From positions 372,001 through 436,000 of the forward strand of contig NZ_JACCBP010000001.1 of assembly GCF_013408655.1 (NCBI RefSeq): a stretch of 64,000 bases of DNA. The letters are read 5' to 3'. Below the pieces are notes generated by a model. It was not told the origin of the DNA. It ran no database searches and saw only the letters and a list, made by a program, of their open reading frames with translations. The stretch is from Pigmentiphaga litoralis. GTDB lineage: Bacteria; Pseudomonadota; Gammaproteobacteria; Burkholderiales; Burkholderiaceae_B. This document shows, piece by piece, positions 2 through 32,731 of this stretch. The translations under genes and the position numbers were made by a program. How positions within the stretch are numbered: position 1 is the stretch's first letter; every line of letters begins with the position of its first letter.

Positions 2-568
2 CCCGTAAACACAATGGCCGATCTTGTAAAAGTCGCTCGTGAAAATCCAGGCAAACTCAACTACGGTTCGGCAGGGGTCGGGTCAATTATTCATCTGACA
101 GGCGAGATGCTTCGCTTCAAGGCGGGAATCGACATCGTTCACGTTCCGTACAAAGGGAACGGTCAAGTCATGACCGACCTCTCTGGCGGAACTTTGCAAC
201 TGGCCTTCGTCGCTCTTGGGCACATGCTGCCCCATATGCTAGATGGTGCGATACGACCAATTGCGATTACCAGCGTCGAGCGTAATCCACTCGTGCCCGA
301 TCTGCCGACAGTAGCAGAAGCCTTTCCCGGTTTTGAGTCCATGGAGTGGTTTGGACTGGTTGCTCCCACAGGTATTCCTCCTGAAGCCTTGAACAAGTTG
401 AACCTCGCATTCCGCCACGCCAGCAAGCGTCCTGAGCTACGTCAAAGCATTGCAAAGCTGGGATATCTTGCGGTCGATGAGTCACCAGAAGAGTTCTCGC
501 AGGCTATACGTACCGAGGGTGCCAAATGGCGCGAGGTCGTAACGCAAGCCAAAGTCCACGTCGAATAA
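2..568 (+). CDS. Bug/TctC-family periplasmic receptor, C-terminal part (5' end outside window)
   Basis: The reading frame is open from base 2, so the methionine at 14 is internal and the N-terminal part, including the signal peptide, lies left of the window. The visible part has the family hallmarks NPGKLNYGSAG, an HVPYKG motif near its middle, and the usual C-terminal lobe. Bug proteins are periplasmic solute receptors for carboxylates and other small acids; most are orphans without recognisable membrane partners. The hydroxylase gene starts about 20 nt after the stop, so this is probably the first visible gene of a catabolic operon and would bind that pathway's substrate. The substrate is not deducible. 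Confidence 0.88.
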   Translation, partial: PVNTMADLVKVARENPGKLNYGSAGVGSIIHLTGEMLRFKAGIDIVHVPYKGNGQVMTDLSGGTLQLAFVALGHMLPHMLDGAIRPIAITSVERNPLVPDLPTVAEAFPGFESMEWFGLVAPTGIPPEALNKLNLAFRHASKRPELRQSIAKLGYLAVDESPEEFSQAIRTEGAKWREVVTQAKVHVE

Positions 569-588
569 ACACAAGCAGGAGACACTAC

Positions 589-2229
589 ATGTCCACCACC
601 ATCAACACCTCGGTTGCTATTGTCGGTGCCGGCCCGATAGGCTTGAGCCTTGCCATTGATCTTGCATGGCGTGGTGTCGACGTCGTGCTGCTCGAAAAAA
701 GCGATGGCAAAGTCGACCATCCACGACTTGGACTGATTGCCGTGCGAACAATGGAGTTCTTCCGGCGCTGGGGATTGACCTCCGACGTCCGCCACTGCGG
801 ATTTCCGGACGATTTTGGCCTTTCCATCGAATTCTGCACGAGCATGACGGGCCACCTCCTGGAACGCGACAATTATCCGAGCATCCGGGATATGGAAACA
901 CCTTCGTGGACGCCAGAAAAAAAGCAACGGTGTCCTCAGCATTGGCTCGACCCAATTCTGAAACGCAGGTTGGCCGACTTTTCTGAGGCACGCTTAGAGC
1001 TGAATGCGTCTGTACATGGCCTAGAAGAGTCGGCTGACGGTGTGACCGTGTCGGCAGTTAACACCGAAACAGGCGCTCCACTTACTGTGCACGCAAAGTA
1101 TGTGGTCGGTTGCGATGGTGCTACGAGTACTGTGCGCACACTGCTGGGTATTTCTATGGAGGGAAATGCCCATCTTAATTATTCGATGGGCATTTTGTTT
1201 GAAAGTCCTGATCTGCTGGAGCGCTGCGGGAAAGCGACTGCAGAGCGTTTTCTATTTATTGGTCCAGAGGGTACCTGGGGCAACTTGACGGTAATTGACG
1301 GCCGTGCTGTATGGCGCCTGACCGTGTATGGCAGTGCCGCGAAGTTCGACATGGAAAATTTCAACGCCGAAGAATGGATACGCCGCGCACTTGGCACTGA
1401 CCAGATCGATTTCACAGTGCTATCCGTATTGCCTTGGAAACGAACTGAGCTAATTGCCTCAAGCTACGGCACCAATCGCATTCTGTTAGCTGGCGATGCC
1501 GCACACACAATGTCCCCGACGGGCGGCATGGGCATGAACACGGGTTTGTGTGACGCGACAGACCTCGCATGGAAGTTAGAGGCAGTAATTAAGGGGTGGG
1601 GTGGAAACCGTCTGATTGCGTCGTACGAAGAAGAGCGCAAGCCCATCGCAACACGCAACGCCGCTTATTCAACGCACAATTTCAAAACATGGACTTCCCC
1701 AGCTCCGTGCGATTTCTTGCTTGAGGACTCCGATCGCGCGATTGAAGCAAGGCGCACCGTCGGAATGAATTTAAAGAAAGCGACCCAAGCTGAATGGCAA
1801 TCTTGGGGCCTGCAAGTGGGTTATCGGTACGAAGGCAGTTCAATTTGCGTTTTTGATGGAACGCCTCCGACACCAGATGATTATTCGACTTACGTCCCGA
1901 CAGCAAGGCCGGGATCGCGTGCACCTCATGCTTGGCTTGCTGATGGCCTATCCACGCTCGACCTGTTCGGCCGCGGTTTTGCACTGCTGGTTTTTGACCA
2001 TCGACGCAAAAAGGCAATTGACTGCCTATTGTCTGCTGCTCAGGATCGGGAAGTCCCGTTGGCGGTTACTCAAATCGACAAACCGGAAGTTGCTGAGCTG
2101 TACGGTTCACCAATGGTGCTTGTCAGACCGGACGGCCATGTGGCTTGGCGCGGCGCCGACATTACTGACGCAGGGCGCATTCTAGACATCGTCCGCGGAG
2201 CGGATCTTCATATGGCGGAAACGATATGA
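589..2229 (+). CDS. FAD-dependent aromatic-ring hydroxylase (PheA/TfdB/MhpA type)
   Basis: A 546-residue flavoprotein monooxygenase. An N-terminal Rossmann motif GAGPIG binds FAD near residue 12. A GDAAHTMSPTGGMGMN motif near residue 300 is the second FAD/ribityl contact. The C-terminal 150 residues form the thioredoxin-like domain of larger class A hydroxylases. Members hydroxylate phenolic or N-heteroaromatic rings with NAD(P)H and oxygen in the cytoplasm. I chose the ATG at 589, preceded by AGGAGAC; the frame is open to 526 but without a good ribosome site. The stop overlaps the next start (ATGA), so the genes are probably translationally coupled. The neighbours (amidase, NodB-like hydrolase) fit degradation of a nitrogen-containing ring, but that is inference. 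Confidence 0.9.
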   Translation: MSTTINTSVAIVGAGPIGLSLAIDLAWRGVDVVLLEKSDGKVDHPRLGLIAVRTMEFFRRWGLTSDVRHCGFPDDFGLSIEFCTSMTGHLLERDNYPSIRDMETPSWTPEKKQRCPQHWLDPILKRRLADFSEARLELNASVHGLEESADGVTVSAVNTETGAPLTVHAKYVVGCDGATSTVRTLLGISMEGNAHLNYSMGILFESPDLLERCGKATAERFLFIGPEGTWGNLTVIDGRAVWRLTVYGSAAKFDMENFNAEEWIRRALGTDQIDFTVLSVLPWKRTELIASSYGTNRILLAGDAAHTMSPTGGMGMNTGLCDATDLAWKLEAVIKGWGGNRLIASYEEERKPIATRNAAYSTHNFKTWTSPAPCDFLLEDSDRAIEARRTVGMNLKKATQAEWQSWGLQVGYRYEGSSICVFDGTPPTPDDYSTYVPTARPGSRAPHAWLADGLSTLDLFGRGFALLVFDHRRKKAIDCLLSAAQDREVPLAVTQIDKPEVAELYGSPMVLVRPDGHVAWRGADITDAGRILDIVRGADLHMAETI

Positions 2230-2915
2230 GTCCAAGAATCTGGGATGAGCTAGTTCCTGAAGCAGACCGCATTGCTTCCCATCGCGCAGGTTTTGGCCGC
2301 TCTTCAGGGATGGGAAGCAGGCCAGCATTACTGATCATTGATGTTCAATACCGCACAGCAGGGACTAAGCCTTTGCCGCTTGTAGAAGCAATGAAGGAAT
2401 TTCCTACTGCATGTGGCCAAGTTGCCTGGGATGCGATCGGCAACATCGAGAAACTCTTGACGGTCTTTCGCCAACAAGGCTGGCCGGTGCTATATCCGCA
2501 TGTGGCGCAAAAGTTTGCATTCGACACTGGGAGATTGACTGAAAAAGTTCCAACAATGATGGACATAGCGCCCGCAGGCTACGAGTTCGTCGAATCAATC
2601 GCACCTCGAGCAGGCGATGTATTAATACCCAAAAAGCACCCAAGCGCTTTTTTTGGCACGGCGTTGGCGAGCTATCTGATTAACAGCGGAGCTGACACGC
2701 TGATCGTCACTGGATGCGCCACGTCGGGCTGCGTACGCGGAAGTGTGGTCGACGCGTTCTCTTATAACTACCGGGTCACAGTGCCCGAGGATGCGGTTTA
2801 CGACCGAAATCATGCGTCACATGTTGTGAACCTGTACGACATGTCCGAAAAATATGCAGATGTCATGACGACCGAAGCAACACTGTGTGCGCTGGCGCAA
2901 CTCGCCGATCGATGA
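2226..2915 (+). CDS. Isochorismatase-family cysteine amidohydrolase
   Basis: 229 residues of the isochorismatase-like fold. The catalytic triad is visible: Asp in LLIIDVQ (about residue 39), Lys in PKKHPSAFFGT (about 137) and Cys in VTGCATSGCVRGS (about 164). Overall it resembles N-carbamoylsarcosine amidases and maleamate amidases, which release ammonia from a linear amide, rather than true isochorismatases. The start overlaps the hydroxylase stop by four bases. The position between a ring hydroxylase and a NodB-like hydrolase suggests a late hydrolytic step in the same pathway. The exact substrate is unknown. Confidence 0.87.
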   Translation: MSPRIWDELVPEADRIASHRAGFGRSSGMGSRPALLIIDVQYRTAGTKPLPLVEAMKEFPTACGQVAWDAIGNIEKLLTVFRQQGWPVLYPHVAQKFAFDTGRLTEKVPTMMDIAPAGYEFVESIAPRAGDVLIPKKHPSAFFGTALASYLINSGADTLIVTGCATSGCVRGSVVDAFSYNYRVTVPEDAVYDRNHASHVVNLYDMSEKYADVMTTEATLCALAQLADR

Positions 2916-2927
2916 TTTGGAGCTACG

Positions 2928-3830
2928 ATGAAAAAATTTGAGAATGGAAATGATCGGTACGATTACAGCGCGATCACTACGCGTCCGGTGTACGATTGGC
3001 CAGATGGCAAACGTTTGGCCGTCTACTTCGCACTAAATATCGAAGGTTTTGAATTCGGGCGAAATCCGGGTAACGACTTCACTTCTATGCCGTCGGCACC
3101 TTACCATCGCGGGTACGCTTACCGGGACTATGGCAACCGCGTTGGCGTCTGGCGCATTCATGCTCTGTTCGAACAATTTGGAATGCCATTGGCAGTGCTT
3201 GCTAATGGCTCAGTCTATGACGTATGCCCCGAGGTGCTCGACGCGTTTCGCAAGCGTGGAGACGAAATCGTTGGTCATGGAAGGACTAATTCCGAAAAGC
3301 AGGCGGATATGAGCGAGGAGTCCGAACGATCGATGCTTCAGGACGTTTGCGCATTGATTCAAAGATATGAAGGAAAGCCGCCGGCTGGATGGCTCGGACC
3401 GTTCATTTCGCAAAGTTCACGCACGCCCGAATTATTGAAAGCACAGGGCTTTAAATACATGTTGGATTGGTGGTTTGACGACCAGCCTATGTGGTTTAGG
3501 ACAGACAACGGTCCAATTCTAGCGGTGCCTTATCCTTCAATGGAGCTGAATGACCTGCCTGCGTATGTCAATCGAGGTGCTAGTGACGAAGAGTTTAGTC
3601 GGATGGCGATTGATGCTTTCGACGAACAACTGGCCGAATCCGAAAATTACCCACAAGTTTATTGCCTGTCCTTGCATACTTTCTTGACAGGTCAGCCTCA
3701 TCGTATTCGCCAGCTGCGCCGAATCCTGGAACACATCAGCCAGCAGCGCGATCGAATTTGGTTGACGACACCTCAAGCAATTGCGGAGCATGTCACCGCG
3801 CTTCCTCCTGGCGTGGTTCCGGGCGGCTAA
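2928..3830 (+). CDS. Polysaccharide-deacetylase-fold hydrolase (PuuE allantoinase-like)
   Basis: 300 residues with the NodB homology barrel. The segment containing GDEIVGHGRTN and the C-terminal YCLSLHTFLTGQPHRI motif match the PuuE/HpuE-like subgroup, which acts on cyclic amides such as allantoin or on N-linked small molecules rather than on chitin or peptidoglycan. There is no signal peptide, in line with a cytoplasmic enzyme. It starts 12 nt after the amidase stop with GGAG in front. Together with the hydroxylase and amidase it forms a plausible hydroxylation, ring-opening and deamination set. That pathway order is inference. Confidence 0.82.
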   Translation: MKKFENGNDRYDYSAITTRPVYDWPDGKRLAVYFALNIEGFEFGRNPGNDFTSMPSAPYHRGYAYRDYGNRVGVWRIHALFEQFGMPLAVLANGSVYDVCPEVLDAFRKRGDEIVGHGRTNSEKQADMSEESERSMLQDVCALIQRYEGKPPAGWLGPFISQSSRTPELLKAQGFKYMLDWWFDDQPMWFRTDNGPILAVPYPSMELNDLPAYVNRGASDEEFSRMAIDAFDEQLAESENYPQVYCLSLHTFLTGQPHRIRQLRRILEHISQQRDRIWLTTPQAIAEHVTALPPGVVPGG

Positions 3831-3877
3831 AGATCAGCGTAGCATCGGTCATACGCAATCTTTGACAAGGTGCTGCC

Positions 3878-4798
3878 GTGGACATACGTCAAATTCAATA
3901 TTTTGTGGCCCTATACGAAGAGGGCAGTATCACAAAAGCTGCTAAGCGCATGCATGTCGTGCAGCCTGCGATCAGCCAGCAGATCAAACGCCTGGAGGCC
4001 AATGCTGATGTCCAGTTGTTCGAGCGGGATCCGCATGGAGTAACCCCTAACGCACTGGCGCATCGGTTTTATCATCATTGCATCGGTGTGCTAACTGAAT
4101 TGGAGCAGGCAAGGGCAGTCCTCAGTCAGGGATCGAATCATCTTGGCGGAAAATTGGTTGTGGGCAGCCAAGCATCGTTCAATCAGTACGTGATGGGGCA
4201 GACGCTCGCTACCTTTCATCAGCTATGCCCCGACGTTGCCATACTCGCCCGCGATGGATATCGTAGTGATCTCATTGAATGGCTAATTCAAGGAGAATTG
4301 GATTTCGCATTATTAAGCACCACGCAGGATCTGCTAAACATGCATACAAGGATGGTTTCGCGTGAGGATCTAGTCGTGGTAGGTCATTGCGAGACACTTG
4401 CGGGGCGTGATGTGCTGAAGGGTAACGAGCTTTCAGCATTCAAGCTGATTTTGCCGTCACGTCATAAATCACTTCGAAATCTCATAGATTCGCAGTTTGG
4501 CCTTCACGGCCTCACTCTGCAACCTCGCATGGAAATCGACTCACTGCAAAGTCTGTTGCAGCTGGCACTTCGCCCTGGCTGGTTGTCCATTGTCCCTTCA
4601 ACAACGGTCTTACCTGAGTCTTTTGGAAATCGACTCAAGAGCGTGCAACTTATTCAACCACTTACACGCCGCAGTGTTGTTGCCACATGGCCAAGACATA
4701 AGGAACTTGCCCCGGCCGTACATGTTTTCATGGAAGTGCTTTTTTCCACACTCTCGGATGTTGCTGGCCTGGAAATAGTGAATGGGGACGTGCTTTGA
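3878..4798 (+). CDS. LysR-family transcriptional regulator
   Basis: 306 residues. The N-terminal winged helix-turn-helix shows IRQIQYFVALYEEGSITKAA and PAISQQIKRLE; the rest is the type 2 periplasmic-binding effector domain. The start is a GTG with AAGG eight bases upstream. Unlike most LysR genes it is co-directional with and downstream of the catabolic genes, so it may regulate its own operon in cis. Its G+C matches the island genes and not the chromosome to the right. Confidence 0.92.
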   Translation: MDIRQIQYFVALYEEGSITKAAKRMHVVQPAISQQIKRLEANADVQLFERDPHGVTPNALAHRFYHHCIGVLTELEQARAVLSQGSNHLGGKLVVGSQASFNQYVMGQTLATFHQLCPDVAILARDGYRSDLIEWLIQGELDFALLSTTQDLLNMHTRMVSREDLVVVGHCETLAGRDVLKGNELSAFKLILPSRHKSLRNLIDSQFGLHGLTLQPRMEIDSLQSLLQLALRPGWLSIVPSTTVLPESFGNRLKSVQLIQPLTRRSVVATWPRHKELAPAVHVFMEVLFSTLSDVAGLEIVNGDVL

Positions 4799-4890
4799 AA
4801 GTGCTAGTCCCAGACAGCACCGTGCCTGAGTTCAACTATTCCGGCGCGACCGTGATCCCTAGTGCTCTGGTCCGAGTGATTTATGGCTAA
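4795..4890 (+). pseudogene. Possible truncated gene start, hydroxyacid-dehydrogenase-like (31 codons)
   Basis: A TTG start overlaps the LysR stop (TTGA) and opens a 31-codon frame beginning MKVLVPDSTVPEF and ending in TAA just before the tRNA fragment. The opening resembles the first strand of D-2-hydroxyacid dehydrogenases (MKILVPD-like starts), but the homology then stops. It may be the 5' end of a sixth operon gene cut at the island junction. It is too short to be sure; chance is a real alternative. Confidence 0.3.
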
Positions 4891-4913
4891 CCTAATGTTT
4901 CGACTGGGAAACT

Positions 4914-4960
4914 GTGGATTGCAAATCCGTGTAGGTCGGTTCGACTCCGGCGCTCGCCTC
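4914..4960 (+). other. tRNA-Cys(GCA) 3' fragment, candidate attR
   Basis: From the anticodon stem onward the sequence reads as tRNA-Cys: stem GTGGA, loop TTGCAAA with anticodon GCA (4921-4923), stem TCCGT, then a T-arm GTCGG-TTCGACT-CCGGC and the acceptor strand GCTCGCC. The 5' side does not form a matching D-arm. The best 5' candidate acceptor (GGCTAAC at 4885-4891) mispairs at two positions, and the encoded CCA is changed to CTA. This is therefore a fragment or degenerate copy, as left by an integrase that recombines in the 3' half of a tRNA gene. Confidence 0.6.
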
Positions 4961-4971
4961 TAGATGCGAAG

Positions 4972-5007
4972 AAAAACGCCGCAATCGAGAGATTGCGGCG
5001 TTTTTTT
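4972..5007 (+). terminator. Rho-independent terminator after the tRNA-Cys fragment
   Basis: A stem AACGCCGCAATC / GATTGCGGCGTT with a GAGA loop is followed by seven T. It is a strong intrinsic terminator. Its position right after the tRNA-Cys fragment suggests that it was the original terminator of the chromosomal tRNA gene. Confidence 0.9.
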
Positions 5008-5215
5008 GCCCGAAGTATGGACGATTTAATTCCCCTCCACGGTCAAGCAAGACCGGTGTCCTTCGGCCGACGGTGCAGGATCTGCCGGCAATGCGTGCAT
5101 CGCCCTGCGCACGCCTCTTTACCCGACCAACCTAAGGCCACGACACATCAAGGTGATGCAGTTGCCCTGACTGATAACGGGCGCACGCGCCACGTGCACT
5201 CGAATTGCGCAAGCC
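5008..5215. other. Intergenic stretch with no recognised feature
   Basis: About 200 bases between the terminator and the 3' end of the minus-strand hydrolase gene. I see no open frame with a ribosome site, no tRNA and no clear repeat. It may be the chromosomal side of the island junction. Confidence 0.5.
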
Positions 5216-6127
5216 CTAGGGCGTCGAGCGATGAATCTGCGCATTACCCCTGGCATCACGAAATCGCACCTGAGCCAGCTCCAACAGCCGGTCAACAGCA
5301 GATCGCGTCGCTCCGTTGTCGGCGCTGAACGGTTGCAGCAGACTGAAGTGGTCGGCCGCTGCGGCTTCGTCAATGAAGCTTTCATTGCCGGCTAGGTGCC
5401 AGGCATCAGCCATGACGCTGTTCTGGGCAATAAATGCTGGCGTCTCTTCGGCCCCGACAATGAACAGGGCCGGAGGCAGGTTCTGTCGCAGGCGATGGAT
5501 GGGAGAGTTGGCTTTTGCTGTTGCTGCATCCAGTCCGAGTTTCGTGTTGATTGACGTCGACACCAGTGGGACGAGGTCGTAGATACCACTCAACGCAATG
5601 ACGCCGTCAATCGCTGGCGGTCGGGAATCCGTCGCTGATCCGAAACTCAGCGCCATTTCGACCGCCAGGTGCGCGCCGGCGGAATGTCCCGCCGTAATCA
5701 GCGGCAACCTGGGCTGACCTAGCGCGTGCGCGTGCTCGAGTACCCGCGAGATGGAAGCGTGCACGCCGGCCACCAGGTCCGTGAGCGTGACGGTGGGGCA
5801 GAGCGGATAGTTGACGAACACAACGTTCACGCCGCGGCGGGTGTACGAAGGCGCAAGAAAGCGAAACCAGAATTTGTCGCGCGCTTGCCAGTAGCCTGCA
5901 TGGTAATAAACCATCGTGGCGACCGGCGCGCCGTGTGCGACAAAAAAGTCGAAGGTGTGCCGTTCGAGCGGCCCATAACGGACGTCGATCGTGCACGCCT
6001 CGGACAGAAGAACTGCATCGCTTGCAGCCTTATAGCTGTCGAGCAACTCGGGGTAGGTCGGGCGGCCTTGACCCTCCACATATTGAAATTGCAGGTCTTC
6101 GGCGTTGCTTTTTTCGGTCGTCATCAT
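5216..6127 (-). CDS. Alpha/beta hydrolase, kynurenine-formamidase/BD-FAE-like
   Basis: About 303 residues. The nucleophile elbow reads GHSAGAH, and an oxyanion-type motif YYHAGYW stands where formamidases and feruloyl esterase-like proteins have HGGYW. A late Asp/His pair lies in the C-terminal third. There is no signal peptide, so it is probably cytoplasmic. The likely chemistry is hydrolysis of a small ester or amide. The ATG at 6127 or 6124 is preferred over an upstream in-frame TTG. The gene follows the LysR gene closely, so the two are probably co-transcribed. Confidence 0.8.
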   Translation of the reverse strand: MMTTEKSNAEDLQFQYVEGQGRPTYPELLDSYKAASDAVLLSEACTIDVRYGPLERHTFDFFVAHGAPVATMVYYHAGYWQARDKFWFRFLAPSYTRRGVNVVFVNYPLCPTVTLTDLVAGVHASISRVLEHAHALGQPRLPLITAGHSAGAHLAVEMALSFGSATDSRPPAIDGVIALSGIYDLVPLVSTSINTKLGLDAATAKANSPIHRLRQNLPPALFIVGAEETPAFIAQNSVMADAWHLAGNESFIDEAAAADHFSLLQPFSADNGATRSAVDRLLELAQVRFRDARGNAQIHRSTP

Positions 6128-6132
6128 TGATC

Positions 6133-7065
6133 TCAAACAGATTGCGTAACTGGTGGCGGTGCGTCTGACTCGCCTTGAAGCGCGAGGTAGTCGACCAGGG
6201 ACTTTGCCGCAGGCGACAGAATGGCCTCGTCGCGATAACAGATGACCAGTTGGCGAATAGCCCAGTCATCCGTCAAGGGAATCACCTTCAATCCCAACGC
6301 GGCCGCATAGGTCGCGGCAATTTCAATCGGCGCGACCGTAATGCCAAGCTTGGCGCGGACCATGCGAAGCACGGCGTCGAAGGTCGACAGCAAGGACCGG
6401 TATTGGATCTGCTTTCCGGCCGCCTCAGCTGCGCGGGCCAACAGCCGGTATCCCGCGGTTTGCGGGTGGAGACCTACCTGTTCGTAGTCCAGCGTGTCTT
6501 CGAAGCAGCAACTGCGCAGCGTGGCAAGTGGGTGCGATGGATGCGTCACGACACCAAGATGATCGCGTCGGTAGGGGCGCGTCTTTACGCCGTCAAGTTC
6601 AGCGGCATCCCAGCAGATGCCCACCGAGGCCACGCCCGCGTGCAGGTTGCGGACGATATCCCGACTCAAGGTCTCTTCGATGTCTACCTGGACACCTTGA
6701 TGGCGCTTTTCTTGCATGAAGTTCGCCACGTCCTCAGGTAGTGATTCGGCAACGGCAGAAAGCGTTGCCAGCAGCCTGATCTTGCCGCGAATGCCTGAGA
6801 CGAAAGCGTCCATGTCGCGGACTGCGCGGTCGGCATCGAACAGCATCGATCGCGCGTACTCAAGCAGGGTTTCACCTGCCGGCGTGGGAAACACGCCGGA
6901 CTTGCTGCGAACGAGCAGGTCGACGCCGGTATGGGTTTCCAACTGCTGCAGGCGCTTGCTCACCGCCGACGGCACGATGTTGAACTTCTCGCCAACGCGC
7001 GCAATGCTGCGCGCATCGCAGGTGGCCACAAAAAGCCGTAGCGACACCAGATCAAATTCTCGCAT
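6133..7065 (-). CDS. LysR-family regulator, divergent to the HMG-CoA-lyase-like operon
   Basis: 310 residues with a LysR winged helix (SLRLFVATCDARSIARVGEKF, SAVSKRLQQLE) and an effector-binding domain. The ATG at 7065 is preceded by GGAGGGGAG, an excellent ribosome site. It is divergent from the HMG-CoA-lyase-like / CoA-transferase / Bug / porin operon starting at 7221, with about 155 bases between. It is therefore the likely regulator of that operon as well as of the downstream hydrolase. Confidence 0.92.
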   Translation of the reverse strand: MREFDLVSLRLFVATCDARSIARVGEKFNIVPSAVSKRLQQLETHTGVDLLVRSKSGVFPTPAGETLLEYARSMLFDADRAVRDMDAFVSGIRGKIRLLATLSAVAESLPEDVANFMQEKRHQGVQVDIEETLSRDIVRNLHAGVASVGICWDAAELDGVKTRPYRRDHLGVVTHPSHPLATLRSCCFEDTLDYEQVGLHPQTAGYRLLARAAEAAGKQIQYRSLLSTFDAVLRMVRAKLGITVAPIEIAATYAAALGLKVIPLTDDWAIRQLVICYRDEAILSPAAKSLVDYLALQGESDAPPPVTQSV

Positions 7066-7220
7066 CGCTCCCCTCCACAAGGAAAGGTGCTTCCGAACCG
7101 GAACGACCAGGCTGCCAAACTACCGCTTTTACGGATGTTGCCGTTTGCTTACAGTACCTGGCAACGAAGCAGGGGCGAGTTGCCTTACCCGCTCCGCTAT
7201 TGGCTATCGAGGTGCTTAAC

Positions 7221-8171
7221 ATGCTCACCAACCTTCCTTCCACTGTCGTCGTTCGAGAGGCTAGCTTACGCGACGGACTTCAAAGTGTGGCGACAATCGT
7301 TCCGATCGAGAACAAGCTGGCTTGGTTGCGGGAGGCCTACGCAGCAGGCTTGCGAGAGATCGAAGTCGGATCATTCGTGCCAGCGCGTCTGCTTCCGCAG
7401 ATGGAAGGGACCGCCGACGTTGTTGCCGAGGCGCGGACCCTGCCTGACCTGTTTGTCTCAGTCCTTGTGCCGAACTTGCGGGGCGCTGAGATGGCGATGG
7501 CCAGTGGCGCACACATGATGACCCTGCCGCTCTCCGCGAGCCATGCACACAGTCTTGCCAACCTTCGCAAAGCGCCTGACGAGGTCGTGGCCGAGGTCGC
7601 GCGTATCCGTGCCGCCCGCGACGCAAGTGGATCGAAAACGTTGATCGAAGGCGGTGTTGGCACCGCATTCGGCTGCACGATCCAGGGCGCAGTGGATCCT
7701 GCCGAGGTCGTGCGGCTTGTGGGGCAACTCCTGGACGCTGGCGCCGATCGCATCAGTCTGGCCGATACCGTCGGATATGCCACGCCGGATGTGGTTCATG
7801 ACTTGTTCGATCAGGCGGTGCGACTCGCGGGCGACCAGTTCTGGTCAGCCCACTTTCACGATACGCGGGGCCTGGGCATCGCGAATGTCTTGGCCGCAAT
7901 GGACGTTGGCGCTACACGCTTCGATGCCTGCCTGGGCGGTCTGGGCGGCTGCCCGCACGCACCCGGGGCCAGCGGCAACGTCTCGACTGAAGATCTCAAC
8001 TACCTGTTTACGAGCATGGGCATCTCCACAGGCCTCTCGATGGAAAAGCTGTTGGCCTTGCGCCAGCGCATCGCCGATTGGCTGCCCCACGAGACCCTGC
8101 GCGGTGTCATCTGGCAAGCCGGTCTGCCAAAAATCTATCCGTTCGCCTCGACAACGCCTGCTCACGCCTGA
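7221..8171 (+). CDS. HMG-CoA-lyase-family (DRE-TIM) acyl-CoA lyase, first copy
   Basis: 316 residues. REASLRDGLQ near residue 14 carries the catalytic Arg-Asp. HFHDTRGLGIAN near residue 213 carries the metal-binding His pair. GGLGGCPHAPGASGN near residue 240 carries the active-site Cys. These are the three signatures of 3-hydroxy-3-methylglutaryl-CoA lyase, but many bacterial members cleave other 3-hydroxyacyl-CoAs such as citramalyl-CoA. The ATG at 7221 follows GAGG with good spacing and is preferred to a TTG at 7200. With the next gene it makes a pair: the transferase activates a hydroxy-acid to its CoA ester and this enzyme cleaves it. Confidence 0.9.
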   Translation: MLTNLPSTVVVREASLRDGLQSVATIVPIENKLAWLREAYAAGLREIEVGSFVPARLLPQMEGTADVVAEARTLPDLFVSVLVPNLRGAEMAMASGAHMMTLPLSASHAHSLANLRKAPDEVVAEVARIRAARDASGSKTLIEGGVGTAFGCTIQGAVDPAEVVRLVGQLLDAGADRISLADTVGYATPDVVHDLFDQAVRLAGDQFWSAHFHDTRGLGIANVLAAMDVGATRFDACLGGLGGCPHAPGASGNVSTEDLNYLFTSMGISTGLSMEKLLALRQRIADWLPHETLRGVIWQAGLPKIYPFASTTPAHA

Positions 8172-29358: not shown

Positions 29359-30273
29359 ATGACGACGACCTCGTTGCAGCAGCCAGGGGAGGCGGGCGAG
29401 GCGGCGTCCGCCGCAACGGCCTTGCCTGCAGCGACGACCGAGCCTGCGGCAACGGCCCAGCCCGCAACACAAGGCCAGCCTGCCGCGCCTGCGCACGGCG
29501 ATGTGCTGCTGTCACGCGACGGGGTTGTCGCCACGATCACCTTGTCCCACCCGGGAAAATTGAACGCGCTCAATATTGAAATGTGGCTGACGTTGCGGCG
29601 CATGCTCGACGATCTGTCGGATGACGACAGCCTGCGCTGCGTGCTGCTGCAGGGCGCGGACGGCAACTTTGCCGCGGGCGCCGATATCTCGGAATTTCCC
29701 GACCAGCGCGGCGATCTGGATGGCCTGCTGCATTACCACGACGCCATCCTGGCCCCGGCATTGCAGGCCGTGGCGCAATGCAAGCATCCAACGGTGGCGG
29801 CGATCCAGGGCGTCTGCGTGGGCGGCGGGCTCGAGATTGCGGCGCACTGCGACTTGCGGATTGCCGCAAGATCATCGCGCTTCGGCGTGCCGATCAATCG
29901 CCTGGGCTTCCCGATGGCGCCCGGCGAAATGCAAGGTGTGCTCGCGTTGGTGGGCCGCGCGGTCACGCTGGAACTGCTGCTGGAAGGGCGCCTGCTGGGC
30001 GCCGATGAAGCGTATTCCAAAGGCATGCTGACTCGTGTCGTCGATGACGACGCATTGCTGGAAGAGGCCCGGCGCTGCGTGGACCGGATCAGCGCCGGCG
30101 CTCCCTTGGCCGCCCGTATCAACAAGGAAACCGTGCGGCGATTGAGCCCGGAACCCGCCCCATTGACCGAGGCCGAACGGCGCGAATGTTTTGCCTACTG
30201 GAATTCGGCCGACCATGTGGAAGGCGTGGCCGCCTTCCTGGCCGGGCGCACGCCCGTGTTTACCGGGCGATGA
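29359..30273 (+). CDS. Enoyl-CoA hydratase/isomerase family protein
   Basis: 304 residues. A 50-residue Ala/Thr/Pro-rich leader precedes the crotonase domain. The oxyanion-hole segments NFAAGADISEF and GVCVGGGLEIAAHCDLRIA are clear. It starts four bases after the Bug stop. Its role in malonate use is unclear; it may handle a 3-hydroxyacyl-CoA formed downstream or a substituted malonate. The leader is absent from ordinary family members. Confidence 0.88.
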   Translation: MTTTSLQQPGEAGEAASAATALPAATTEPAATAQPATQGQPAAPAHGDVLLSRDGVVATITLSHPGKLNALNIEMWLTLRRMLDDLSDDDSLRCVLLQGADGNFAAGADISEFPDQRGDLDGLLHYHDAILAPALQAVAQCKHPTVAAIQGVCVGGGLEIAAHCDLRIAARSSRFGVPINRLGFPMAPGEMQGVLALVGRAVTLELLLEGRLLGADEAYSKGMLTRVVDDDALLEEARRCVDRISAGAPLAARINKETVRRLSPEPAPLTEAERRECFAYWNSADHVEGVAAFLAGRTPVFTGR

Positions 30274-30403
30274 ATCGTGGGCAACGATCTGCATCGACGG
30301 ACTTTGCATCGACGAACTCTGCGCCCCCATGCGACGCATCGGCATTCGCGATTCCCCATTTTCTGATGATTCTTTCACCGACTCTTTTCATAGCGACGTC
30401 TCC

Positions 30404-31942
30404 ATGAACGGCAACCTGTACTCCCTGCTGTCCTCGGGCTTTCCCGCCGACCGACAAAGCCTGTCCATCGAAGCCCATGACGGGGTGAACTTCACGTGGC
30501 AGGACGTCGACGCCATGACGGCCCGCATCGCCAACCTGCTTGCCGCGCTCGACTTGCCCAAGGGCGCGCGCGTGGCCGCGCAGGTCGAAAAATCCCCCGA
30601 AGCGCTGATGCTCTACCTGGCCACCCTACGCGCCGGCTATGTATATCTGCCGCTCAACACGGCCTACCAGTCCAGCGAAGTGGATTACTTTTTGGGCGAT
30701 GCCGAACCGTCGGTGGTCGTGTGTAGCAGCAAGAATCTGGCATGGGTCGGCGCAGCCGCGGCCAAGGCCGGCACGGGCCACGTCTTCACGCTGGATGACG
30801 ATCACACCGGCTCGCTGCTGGACGCCGCGCAAACGCATGCCGACAGCTTCGACACCGTCGCGGTGACCGATGACGATCTGGCCGCGATCCTGTACACGTC
30901 AGGCACCACGGGCCGCAGCAAGGGCGCGATGCTGACGCATGACAACCTGGCCTCCAATGCCAAGGTGCTGCACGAATTCTGGGGCTGGCGCAGCGACGAC
31001 GTGTTGCTGCACATGCTGCCGATCTTCCATGTGCATGGCCTGTTCGTGGCCGCGCATGGCGCGTTGCTGGCGGGCGCCAAGATGATCTGGCTGCCCAAGC
31101 TGGACGTGGCGCGCACGCTGCGCGAATTGCCACGCTGCACCGTGATGATGGGCGTGCCCACCTACTACGTGCGCCTGCTGGACGAGCCTGGCTTCAACCG
31201 CGAGGTGTGCCGCAACATGCGCCTGTTCGTGTCCGGCTCGGCGCCATTGTTGATGGAGACATTCAACGATTTCCGCGAACGCAGCGGCCACACCATCCTG
31301 GAACGGTATGGCATGAGCGAAACGGCCATGCTGGTCTCGAATCCGTACGATGCGTCGCTGGGCGAACGGATCGGCGGCACGGTGGGCATGCCGCTGCCGG
31401 GCGTCTCGGTCCGTGTCGTGAACGACGCCGACCAGGAATGCGCGGCAGGCGAGATCGGCAACATCCAGGTCAAGGGTCCGAACGTGTTCAAGGGCTACTG
31501 GCGCATGCCGGAAAAAACCGCCCAGGAATTCACGGCCGACGGCTGGTTCAAGACGGGCGACGTGGGACGCTGGGGTGGTGACGGGGCAGGGGCGGTGGTG
31601 CCCGACAACTATCTGGCAATCGTCGGCCGCAGCAAGGACCTGATCATTTCAGGCGGCTTCAATGTCTACCCTAAGGAAATCGAGACGCTGATCGACGACA
31701 TGCCCGGCGTGCTGGAAAGCGCGGTGATCGGCGTGCCGCACAAGGACTTCGGCGAAGCGGTGGTTGCCGTGGTCGTGGCCAAGCCCGGCGCGGACCTGGT
31801 CGAAGCCGACATGCTGGCAGTGCTCAAGACCCGTATCGCCAACTTCAAGGTGCCCAAGCGGCTGCACGTGGTCAAGGAGCTGCCGCGCAACACCATGGGC
31901 AAGGTGCAGAAGAACGTGCTGCGCGATACCTACGGGCTTTGA
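30404..31942 (+). CDS. matB: Malonyl-CoA synthetase
   Basis: 512 residues of the acyl-adenylate-forming family. The AMP-binding motif ILYTSGTTGRSKGAMLTH lies near residue 165, the motif ERYGMSE near residue 300, TGDVGRW near 385 and the C-terminal catalytic lysine in PRNTMGKVQKNVLR near 495. It converts malonate, ATP and CoA to malonyl-CoA. The ATG at 30404 is chosen; the open frame upstream encodes no conserved residues. It is the last gene of the mat operon. Confidence 0.93.
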   Translation: MNGNLYSLLSSGFPADRQSLSIEAHDGVNFTWQDVDAMTARIANLLAALDLPKGARVAAQVEKSPEALMLYLATLRAGYVYLPLNTAYQSSEVDYFLGDAEPSVVVCSSKNLAWVGAAAAKAGTGHVFTLDDDHTGSLLDAAQTHADSFDTVAVTDDDLAAILYTSGTTGRSKGAMLTHDNLASNAKVLHEFWGWRSDDVLLHMLPIFHVHGLFVAAHGALLAGAKMIWLPKLDVARTLRELPRCTVMMGVPTYYVRLLDEPGFNREVCRNMRLFVSGSAPLLMETFNDFRERSGHTILERYGMSETAMLVSNPYDASLGERIGGTVGMPLPGVSVRVVNDADQECAAGEIGNIQVKGPNVFKGYWRMPEKTAQEFTADGWFKTGDVGRWGGDGAGAVVPDNYLAIVGRSKDLIISGGFNVYPKEIETLIDDMPGVLESAVIGVPHKDFGEAVVAVVVAKPGADLVEADMLAVLKTRIANFKVPKRLHVVKELPRNTMGKVQKNVLRDTYGL

Positions 31943-32000: not shown

Positions 32001-32348
32001 GCGCCTGTGACGAAACAGGTAGACGTAGCGGACTTCCAGCAATGCGGAGTGCCCCGGGCGAAAGGCCGGGAGTAGAACTCGTCAAATTCGGTGAACCCCT
32101 GGCACGGGAACGCCGAGCCAAGCAGGTCGTTTGTTTTCGAACGGCTGGGCGTGTGTAGAGACTTGACGGCGAGGGCCTAATGTCGGGCGTGACCGATGCT
32201 TATCGGACGGGTCCGGCGATGGTCAAGACAAAGTCCAGACCCCAAACGGCGATCGCGGCAGTTCAGCGGCGCCGGCAGCGCGAGCTGTAGCAGGTAAGAA
32301 AATCCGCCGCCGCAAGGCGTACCGGTTCGACTCCGGTCAGGCGCACCA
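32001..32348 (+). tRNA. tRNA-Leu(UAA) interrupted by a group I intron
   Basis: Exon 1 is 32001-32035, exon 2 is 32299-32348 with encoded CCA; the joined tRNA is 85 nt. The acceptor GCGCCTG / CAGGCGC pairs fully, the anticodon stem is GCGGA / TCCGC, the joined loop is CTTAAAA with anticodon TAA, the long variable arm CGCC-GCAA-GGCG is typical of Leu, and the T-arm is ACCGG-TTCGACT-CCGGT. The split falls between anticodon bases U34 and A35. A weak GACAAT -10-like box lies ten bases upstream. Confidence 0.93.
32036..32298 (+). ncRNA. Self-splicing group I intron in the tRNA-Leu anticodon loop
   Basis: 263 nt. Exon ACTT pairs with GGAGT to give P1 with the expected U-G wobble at the 5' splice site. 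P2 is CCCGG / CCGGG; P3 is CTCGTCAA with TTGACGGCGAG; P4-P5 lie in TTCGGTGAACCCCTGG to AACGCCGAG; P6 is GTCGTTTG / CGAACGGC. The conserved core elements are AGAGACTTGAC (32157-32167) and AAGACAAAGTCC (32225-32236), which pair as P7. The intron ends in G32298. No homing endonuclease frame is present. Probably subgroup IC3, as for other tRNA introns. Confidence 0.9.
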
Positions 32349-32356
32349 CTTCTTCT

Positions 32357-32731
32357 TCAGCGGCGGGGTTTGGCAACCCGCTGCGATGGCATTGGCGCTT
32401 CCAGATGCGTCGTCAGCCAGTCGGCCGGCTTGCCGTCTTTCTTGGCGTGCCAATCCTTGCCCAGCTCGACAATCAACGCGTCCTTCGCGTCTTCGAAATC
32501 CGTCTTGGCCGCCGCGTCGAACATGCAGGCGTAGATGTCGCAGGCAGGAAAATCACTGGCAACGAACACGCCGACGCCACGTGAATCGATCCACAACGGC
32601 GCCGCCCGGTTGTCGACTTTTTCCTGCAGGTTGCGAAGGGCGCGTTGCACGGTCGACGCGCTTTCTTTCGACGCGGACATGATCACCAGGTAGTGGCGCA
32701 GCTCGACGGGGTCTTTGAAGGGATCATTCAT
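32357..32731 (-). CDS. Hypothetical protein
   Basis: 124 residues, soluble, with PVELRHYLVIMSASKESAST at the start and a helical C-terminal half. Its 3' end is only nine bases from the tRNA-Leu 3' end, so the two are convergent. No family recognised, and no ribosome site is especially strong. It could be a toxin-neutral housekeeping protein or accessory; nothing in the context decides. Confidence 0.55.
   Translation of the reverse strand: MNDPFKDPVELRHYLVIMSASKESASTVQRALRNLQEKVDNRAAPLWIDSRGVGVFVASDFPACDIYACMFDAAAKTDFEDAKDALIVELGKDWHAKKDGKPADWLTTHLEAPMPSQRVAKPRR

Follow-up and report, generated by a model that had tools for sequence, protein, structure and literature searches.

We are highly confident that positions 32001-32348 of the DNA analysed here, a 64,000-nucleotide stretch of the Pigmentiphaga litoralis genome (hereafter called the window), hold the sole known tRNA-Leu(UAA) gene of this bacterium, and that the gene is split between U34 and A35 of its anticodon by a small group I ribozyme inherited within the genus. 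This kind of intron is already known, and the window intron is a new member of it. After transcription, the intron would fold on the precursor and bind guanosine at its P7 helix; the precursor would then be cut behind U34, whose free end would attack after the terminal G of the intron, joining the two parts of the anticodon. We infer from the sequence that splicing does take place in these two steps and that the cell needs it to read UUA.

Boundaries of the gene and its intron

ARAGORN run in its intron mode reported tRNA-Leu(taa) at 32001-32348 with a 263-nt intron placed after position 35, and joining the exons gave an 85-nt cloverleaf whose anticodon is UAA and whose terminal CCA is encoded in the gene. 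An earlier note on this DNA had proposed that a tRNA-Leu cloverleaf forms upon removal of 32036-32298 and that the intron is inserted between U34 and A35; the program agreed with the former to the base and also bore out the insertion site. The gene and its neighbours are as follows.

30191..31942, + strand: ORF for an AMP-binding acyl-CoA ligase, directly upstream, start codon unsettled (Pfam PF00501)
32001..32035, + strand: 5' exon of tRNA-Leu(UAA), last base U34 (ARAGORN intron mode and spliced cloverleaf)
32036..32298, + strand: group I intron, 263 nt, final base G32298 (ARAGORN, RF00028 match, and core covariation)
32299..32348, + strand: 3' exon of tRNA-Leu(UAA), first base A35, CCA encoded (ARAGORN intron mode)
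32357..32731, - strand: downstream ORF of 124 amino acids, no Pfam family, matched by tblastn in just one of the loci compared, that of the nearest relative (L047)

As read from the sequence, U32035 lies opposite G32047 in P1 and the terminal intron base is G32298, so that the U-G pair at the 5' splice site and the final G described in the earlier note are both there. The window intron encodes no homing endonuclease; its 263 nt correspond to 87 codons at most, with no internal ORF of at least 100 amino acids, and this length leaves no space for an endonuclease or a maturase.

Default ARAGORN found nothing at 32001-32348 and only two tRNA-Gly genes across the window, and Rfam at gathering thresholds gave the same result on both points. 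With relaxed limits, the covariance model that the earlier note had named as a check (RF00028, Intron_gpI) matched 32026-32251 in a search of 551 bases with 25.9 bits and an E-value of 1.5e-4. This score is under the RF00028 gathering threshold of 50 bits, which is a curated cut-off rather than a structural feature, and two further introns of the same type likewise fell under it (31.2 and 33.9 bits). Because both default ARAGORN and the Rfam threshold miss the gene, genomes of this kind can seem to lack a tRNA that reads UUA.

Fold and covariation of the intron core

The core was analysed on an alignment of 14 sequences, 11 from the genus (the window's own among them) and three more distant, on which P3, P4, P5, P6a, P8, and the P7 pseudoknot were entered by hand. 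The elements of the fold, all on the + strand, are listed below with their pairing in the 14 cores where it was counted.

32032..32050: P1, in which ACUU 32032-32035 of the exon faces GAGU 32047-32050 of the internal guide (read from sequence only)
32053..32070: P2-like hairpin, GAAA loop 32060-32063, mismatch in the window's stem (single-sequence fold)
32078..32083: P3 5' strand, partner 32168-32173 (100% of cells paired, 2 of 6 pairs covary)
32089..32115: P4 (32089-32093 / 32111-32115) and P5 (32096-32098 / 32106-32108) (96.4% paired, 1 of 8 covaries)
32126..32145: P6a stem, 32126-32133 / 32138-32145 (88.5% paired over 6 counted pairs, 5 covary)
32160..32165: P7 5' strand, partner 32229-32235 with bulged A32230 (100% paired, 3 of 6 covary)
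within 32174..32224: P8 outer stem, 32174-32177 / 32221-32224 (100% paired, 2 of 4 covary)
within the same interval: P8 inner stems, 32182-32188 / 32211-32217 and 32193-32197 / 32202-32206 (three inner pairs counted, 83.3% paired; remainder single-sequence)
within 32239..32298: P9.0-like pairing of the 3' domain, 32239-32241 / 32293-32295 (single-sequence fold)
32247..32274: extra hairpin of the 3' domain (single-sequence fold)
32275..32288: P9-like hairpin of the 3' domain, 32275-32279 / 32284-32288, GCGA loop (single-sequence fold)

The P3-P8 structure with the P3/P7 pseudoknot formed standard pairs in 95.6% of 456 cells, and 15 of the 33 core pairs covaried, i.e., changed on both sides. In shuffled alignments 86.7% of the cells were paired, and the observed covariation score was reached by none of 500 shuffles. 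Sliding one strand by 1-3 columns brought pairing down to 28-44%, a control in which the structure is favoured because it was partly read off the window sequence; the changes on both sides are the stronger point. The core structure of these 14 homologous introns is beyond chance.

The P7 core singled out in the earlier note thus proved to be paired in every sequence, with three pair types at one position, and its bulged A is replaced with G in L076 and L077. By likeness to known group I introns, P7 would be the guanosine-binding helix. Pairs of P4/P5 and P6a are broken in some rows of the alignment, and the P2-like stem is variable among relatives. Covariation covers the P3-P8 core, while P1, P2, and the 3' domain were drawn from the window sequence. 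The single-sequence fold places GAAA and GCGA loops at the P2-like and P9-like positions; subgroup IC3 (Azoarcus-like) is told apart by tetraloops and a core sequence of its own.

A single gene for the decoding of UUA

The genome has 45 tRNA matches outside the window gene, among which ARAGORN read the leucine anticodons tag, caa, cag (twice), and gag, and none was UAA. When the gene was used as a DNA query against the genome, it was found in one place only, with no second copy, in an assembly of 99.57% completeness. A pattern search allowing one mismatch found no intact tRNA-Leu(UAA) in the 11 genomes of the genus; the pattern for an uninterrupted gene returned tRNA-Leu(CAA) only in nine of them and had zero matches in the other two, missing even the CAA gene there. 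A second tRNA-Leu(UAA) gene could have escaped ARAGORN, the exact-pattern search, and the assembly alike, and tRNA-Ile(GAT) and tRNA-Ala(TGC) are also absent from the tRNA list of the genome.

UUA is rare and in use. It accounted for 33 of 9846 leucine codons in a sample of 464 kb, made up of the 64-kb window and 20 stretches of 20 kb from the same genome, and occurred in 26 of 255 ORFs that came from a rough ORF caller and were picked by a crude composition rule; one of these 26 looks hemC-like by eye. Under standard wobble rules UUA is read by the anticodon UAA only, and splicing of the intron is therefore probably essential for the cell. As the intron occurs throughout the genus and no intact back-up was found, splicing by the ribozyme is likely an essential step there as well. 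The earlier note had made essentiality depend on this being the sole tRNA-Leu(UAA) gene and had suggested a search for others; the outcome of that search and the use of UUA in the sampled ORFs have strengthened its argument.

Inheritance within the genus

The intron is present in 11 of 11 genus genomes; its homologues in the ten relatives measure 244-300 nt and likewise sit at U34/A35. The acyl-CoA ligase gene adjoins the intron gene in nine of these ten. L056, the locus of genome G010, has no ligase neighbour within the stretch compared, and its intron, 300 nt long, contains additional sequence around P6. Near-identical copies of the two downstream genes compared were seen in L047, the nearest relative, alone. 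In a midpoint-rooted tree of 99 cores and 132 columns, in which the bootstrap was unsettled, the genus introns formed one branch (support 100/98), and most other introns of the same family fell in a separate large branch of 51 (99/97). The AU test did not reject a clade of the genus and nine other introns of the family (p-AU 0.188), so that a common origin within the family may still hold.

The intron thus appears to be a fixed part of the gene that has been passed on by descent in this genus. Of the two origins offered in the earlier note, vertical inheritance or ancient transfer, the vertical one is supported within the genus, given the presence of the intron in all 11 genomes and the conserved ligase neighbour. 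The lack of an endonuclease, to which the note also appealed, does not in itself imply immobility: some members of the wider family are carried by integrative elements.

Distribution of the intron family

In the order, 59 of 399 genomes contained a match to a model of the core at E <= 0.001, and in the class 43 of 370 did, many of the class matches being weak (E above 1e-6); the genome of the window is counted in both totals. tRNA-Leu(UAA) split at U34/A35 made up 23 of the 28 typed loci in the order survey, 18 of 29 in the class survey, and 79 of 120 among the matches listed in a pattern scan of named genomes, which yielded at least 120 loci; these shares lean towards Leu(UAA) because the model and the pattern were built from Leu(UAA) introns, and one organism may occur in more than one collection. 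The other typed loci were tRNA-Leu(CAA), genes with a CAU anticodon, tRNA-Ser(UGA), and a few others, and 9 and 3 loci stayed uncalled. The view given in the earlier note, that betaproteobacterial tRNA introns are best known in tRNA-Ile, is to be qualified by the order survey, in which Leu(UAA) introns were unexceptional and only four typed loci had a CAU anticodon, by a model that favours the former.

Introns of the same type occur in further genes and replicons. A tRNA-Leu(CAA) gene carries one, mostly between C34 and A35, in 24 of 120 among the matches listed (L110-L229), with hosts that include beta- and gammaproteobacteria. tRNA-Ser(UGA) genes in L237/L108 and L238 have one between U34 and G35, near an intact tRNA-Leu(UAA), and two further Ser(UGA) cases are among the class-survey loci. 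Plasmid records gave nine matches, all from Mycetohabitans. Two tRNA-Leu(UAA) introns (L152 and L178) lie on 61-67 kb plasmids of Candidatus Vallotia and branch near the Mycetohabitans intron with modest support. The single match among phage records was to the 3' part of a tRNA only.

Putative integrative elements with an intron-bearing tRNA-Leu(UAA)

In 24 of 148 among the loci listed (L082-L229; loci rather than species, with some organisms possibly present twice), a host tRNA-Leu(UAA) broken in the anticodon loop precedes the intron-bearing gene at a short distance. Four of 28 half calls (L076, L114, L117, and L223) had been excluded, as each was the intron gene's own 5' exon. The broken gene sits 328-382 bases upstream of the P7 of the intron; its 5' half differs between hosts and ends in GACTTAAAATC or a one-base variant (L190 and L193). 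It is followed by a common left-end motif with TTTGTCAA or a close variant, and the DNA beyond this motif is common to distant hosts, Lysobacter and Ottowia being 93% identical over 5 kb; the shared part in Ottowia encodes TrbI, VirB8-like, TrbL, and TraG-type ATPase proteins. The 165-nt left end, scanned at two loci, had no Rfam family at E 1.

Six records were searched for the matching 3' half of the host tRNA. Three of them (loci L150, L133, and L186) have it at the far side, with contig and strand unchanged, and the exact pattern had no match to a second native half in the other three (L125, L141, and G349). The three units thus delimited are as follows.

G429:C1:3008374-3054297: putative element of Ottowia beijingensis, halves 45.9 kb apart
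G796:C21:186967-228048: putative element of Lysobacter concretionis, halves 41.1 kb apart
G798:C1:721804-773148: putative element of Eoetvoesiella caeni, halves 51.3 kb apart

The right ends of all three consist of CATGCTCTGG followed by CTTAAAATC. In Lysobacter and Eoetvoesiella, the right end adjoins a frame of 411-412 residues with Phage_integrase (E 1.1e-19 and 2.6e-18) and arm-binding domains; the split integrase frame of Ottowia gave an arm-binding hit and a catalytic-domain hit below the curated cut-off. We regard these 41-51 kb units as putative integrative elements, and the Trb genes of Ottowia, the one host checked for them, suggest that they may be conjugative.

At two loci, L125 (about 3074-7808) and L182 (about 322-3894, minus strand), the same left end and replacement tRNA are followed by a GajA/GajB pair, assigned by PADLOC models to the Gabija anti-phage system (best E 8.7e-235 and 2.3e-205 in L182). 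The GajA-like gene of L125 is in two parts, with a DDE transposase ORF between them.

From this arrangement, the element would enter the anticodon loop of the host tRNA-Leu(UAA) and break the gene, and its left end would supply a complete intron-bearing tRNA-Leu(UAA) as a replacement. Because the intron lies within the CTT/AAAATC core, the replacement tRNA should be no target for the integrase. We tentatively join these points into one reading, which we hold to be possible and on the whole doubtful: the U34/A35 intron would cut the 9-base CTTAAAATC core of the anticodon loop that serves as the attachment site of an ICE family, the intron-bearing tRNA-Leu(UAA) of the element would restore decoding and escape its own integrase, and the fixed intron would make the sole gene of the genus immune. 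If true, splicing would let a cell hide an attachment site and yet still make the tRNA, and the window gene would likewise be protected against elements of this sort. Titles and abstract openings on introns in integrative elements, a partial coverage of the literature, did not report an intron-bearing tRNA on such an element. These relatives suggest a testable route for the spread of endonuclease-free tRNA introns between beta- and gammaproteobacteria.

Alternative explanations

The frequency of broken host halves just upstream of related genes raises the question of whether the intron gene came to the ancestor of the genus on such an element, the remaining parts of which have since been lost. 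Most other introns of the family fall in the large branch with the element-borne ones, and the AU test does not reject the genus and nine others as a single clade. However, neither the broken tRNA half nor the left-end motif was found in the window or in the ten genus loci, no exon copy or second tRNA half marks an integration within the window, and the pattern detected no Leu(UAA)-type half in the genome of the window. The exons are also unlike the element-borne type, with 76-78% identity in the rows seen as against 80-85% to several intact genes of other families and its own (chosen intact genes only), and in the tree the genus stands on a branch of its own. We thus consider arrival on an element quite improbable; from its exons and the lack of a half and motif, the window gene is best seen as carrying a settled, vertically inherited intron.

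Other explanations concern the way the intron leaves the RNA. It might be a group I relic that no longer self-splices and needs a host protein, as chloroplast introns in general do according to PMC9275481. The score under the Rfam threshold, the P4/P5 and P6a pairs broken in relatives, and the mismatch in the P2 of the window would fit such decay, but P3, P7, and outer P8 are paired in 14 of 14 sequences with compensatory changes and both the U-G pair and the terminal G are there, which makes a relic unlikely. A dead gene that is never spliced, with UUA read in some other way, would accord with the great rarity of UUA among the leucine codons sampled; it is very improbable in view of the retention of both exons and the intron core, with compensatory changes, in 11 of 11 genus genomes, and of the lack of any other UAA gene by pattern in those genomes. 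An intron removed by proteins, as in archaea or eukaryotes, would share the position in the anticodon loop, but the host is a bacterium and the group I core covaries together with its pseudoknot, so that we give this explanation almost no weight.

Comparison with known systems

The trnL intron of cyanobacteria and plastids interrupts the same gene, tRNA-Leu(UAA), and like the window intron it is inserted inside the UAA anticodon, at a shared position that we take to be U34/A35. The window host differs in being a betaproteobacterium, and the likeness is one of published description. Two papers state that the cyanobacterial and plastid introns occupy one shared anticodon position (PMC5733544, PMC4033280). 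In Beggiatoaceae (Thiomargarita and BOGUAY), which are gammaproteobacterial unlike the window host, tRNA-Leu-TAA is interrupted by a putative group I intron, and the authors state that they left the structure and type of the tRNA introns undetermined (PMC4853749). Acidovorax and Burkholderia have group I introns in tRNA-Ile2, a different tRNA from that of the window, according to passages that make no mention of tRNA-Leu (PMC8450103). In the literature covered, which is partial and may leave out further cases, proteobacterial tRNA-Leu introns appear in print for Beggiatoaceae only.

The intron of the Azoarcus sp. BH72 pre-tRNA-Ile(CAU) is small, endonuclease-free, and betaproteobacterial, like that of the window, and its core and tetraloops are presumably closely alike as well. 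It resides in a different tRNA and is inserted after the anticodon rather than within it. The tRNA-Leu(UAA) intron of Mycetohabitans (NC_014718, L079) shares the site and the length of 263 nt with the window intron, at 68.9% identity over 87% of the query, whereas it lies on an 822-kb replicon with other annotated neighbours and belongs to another branch of the tree.
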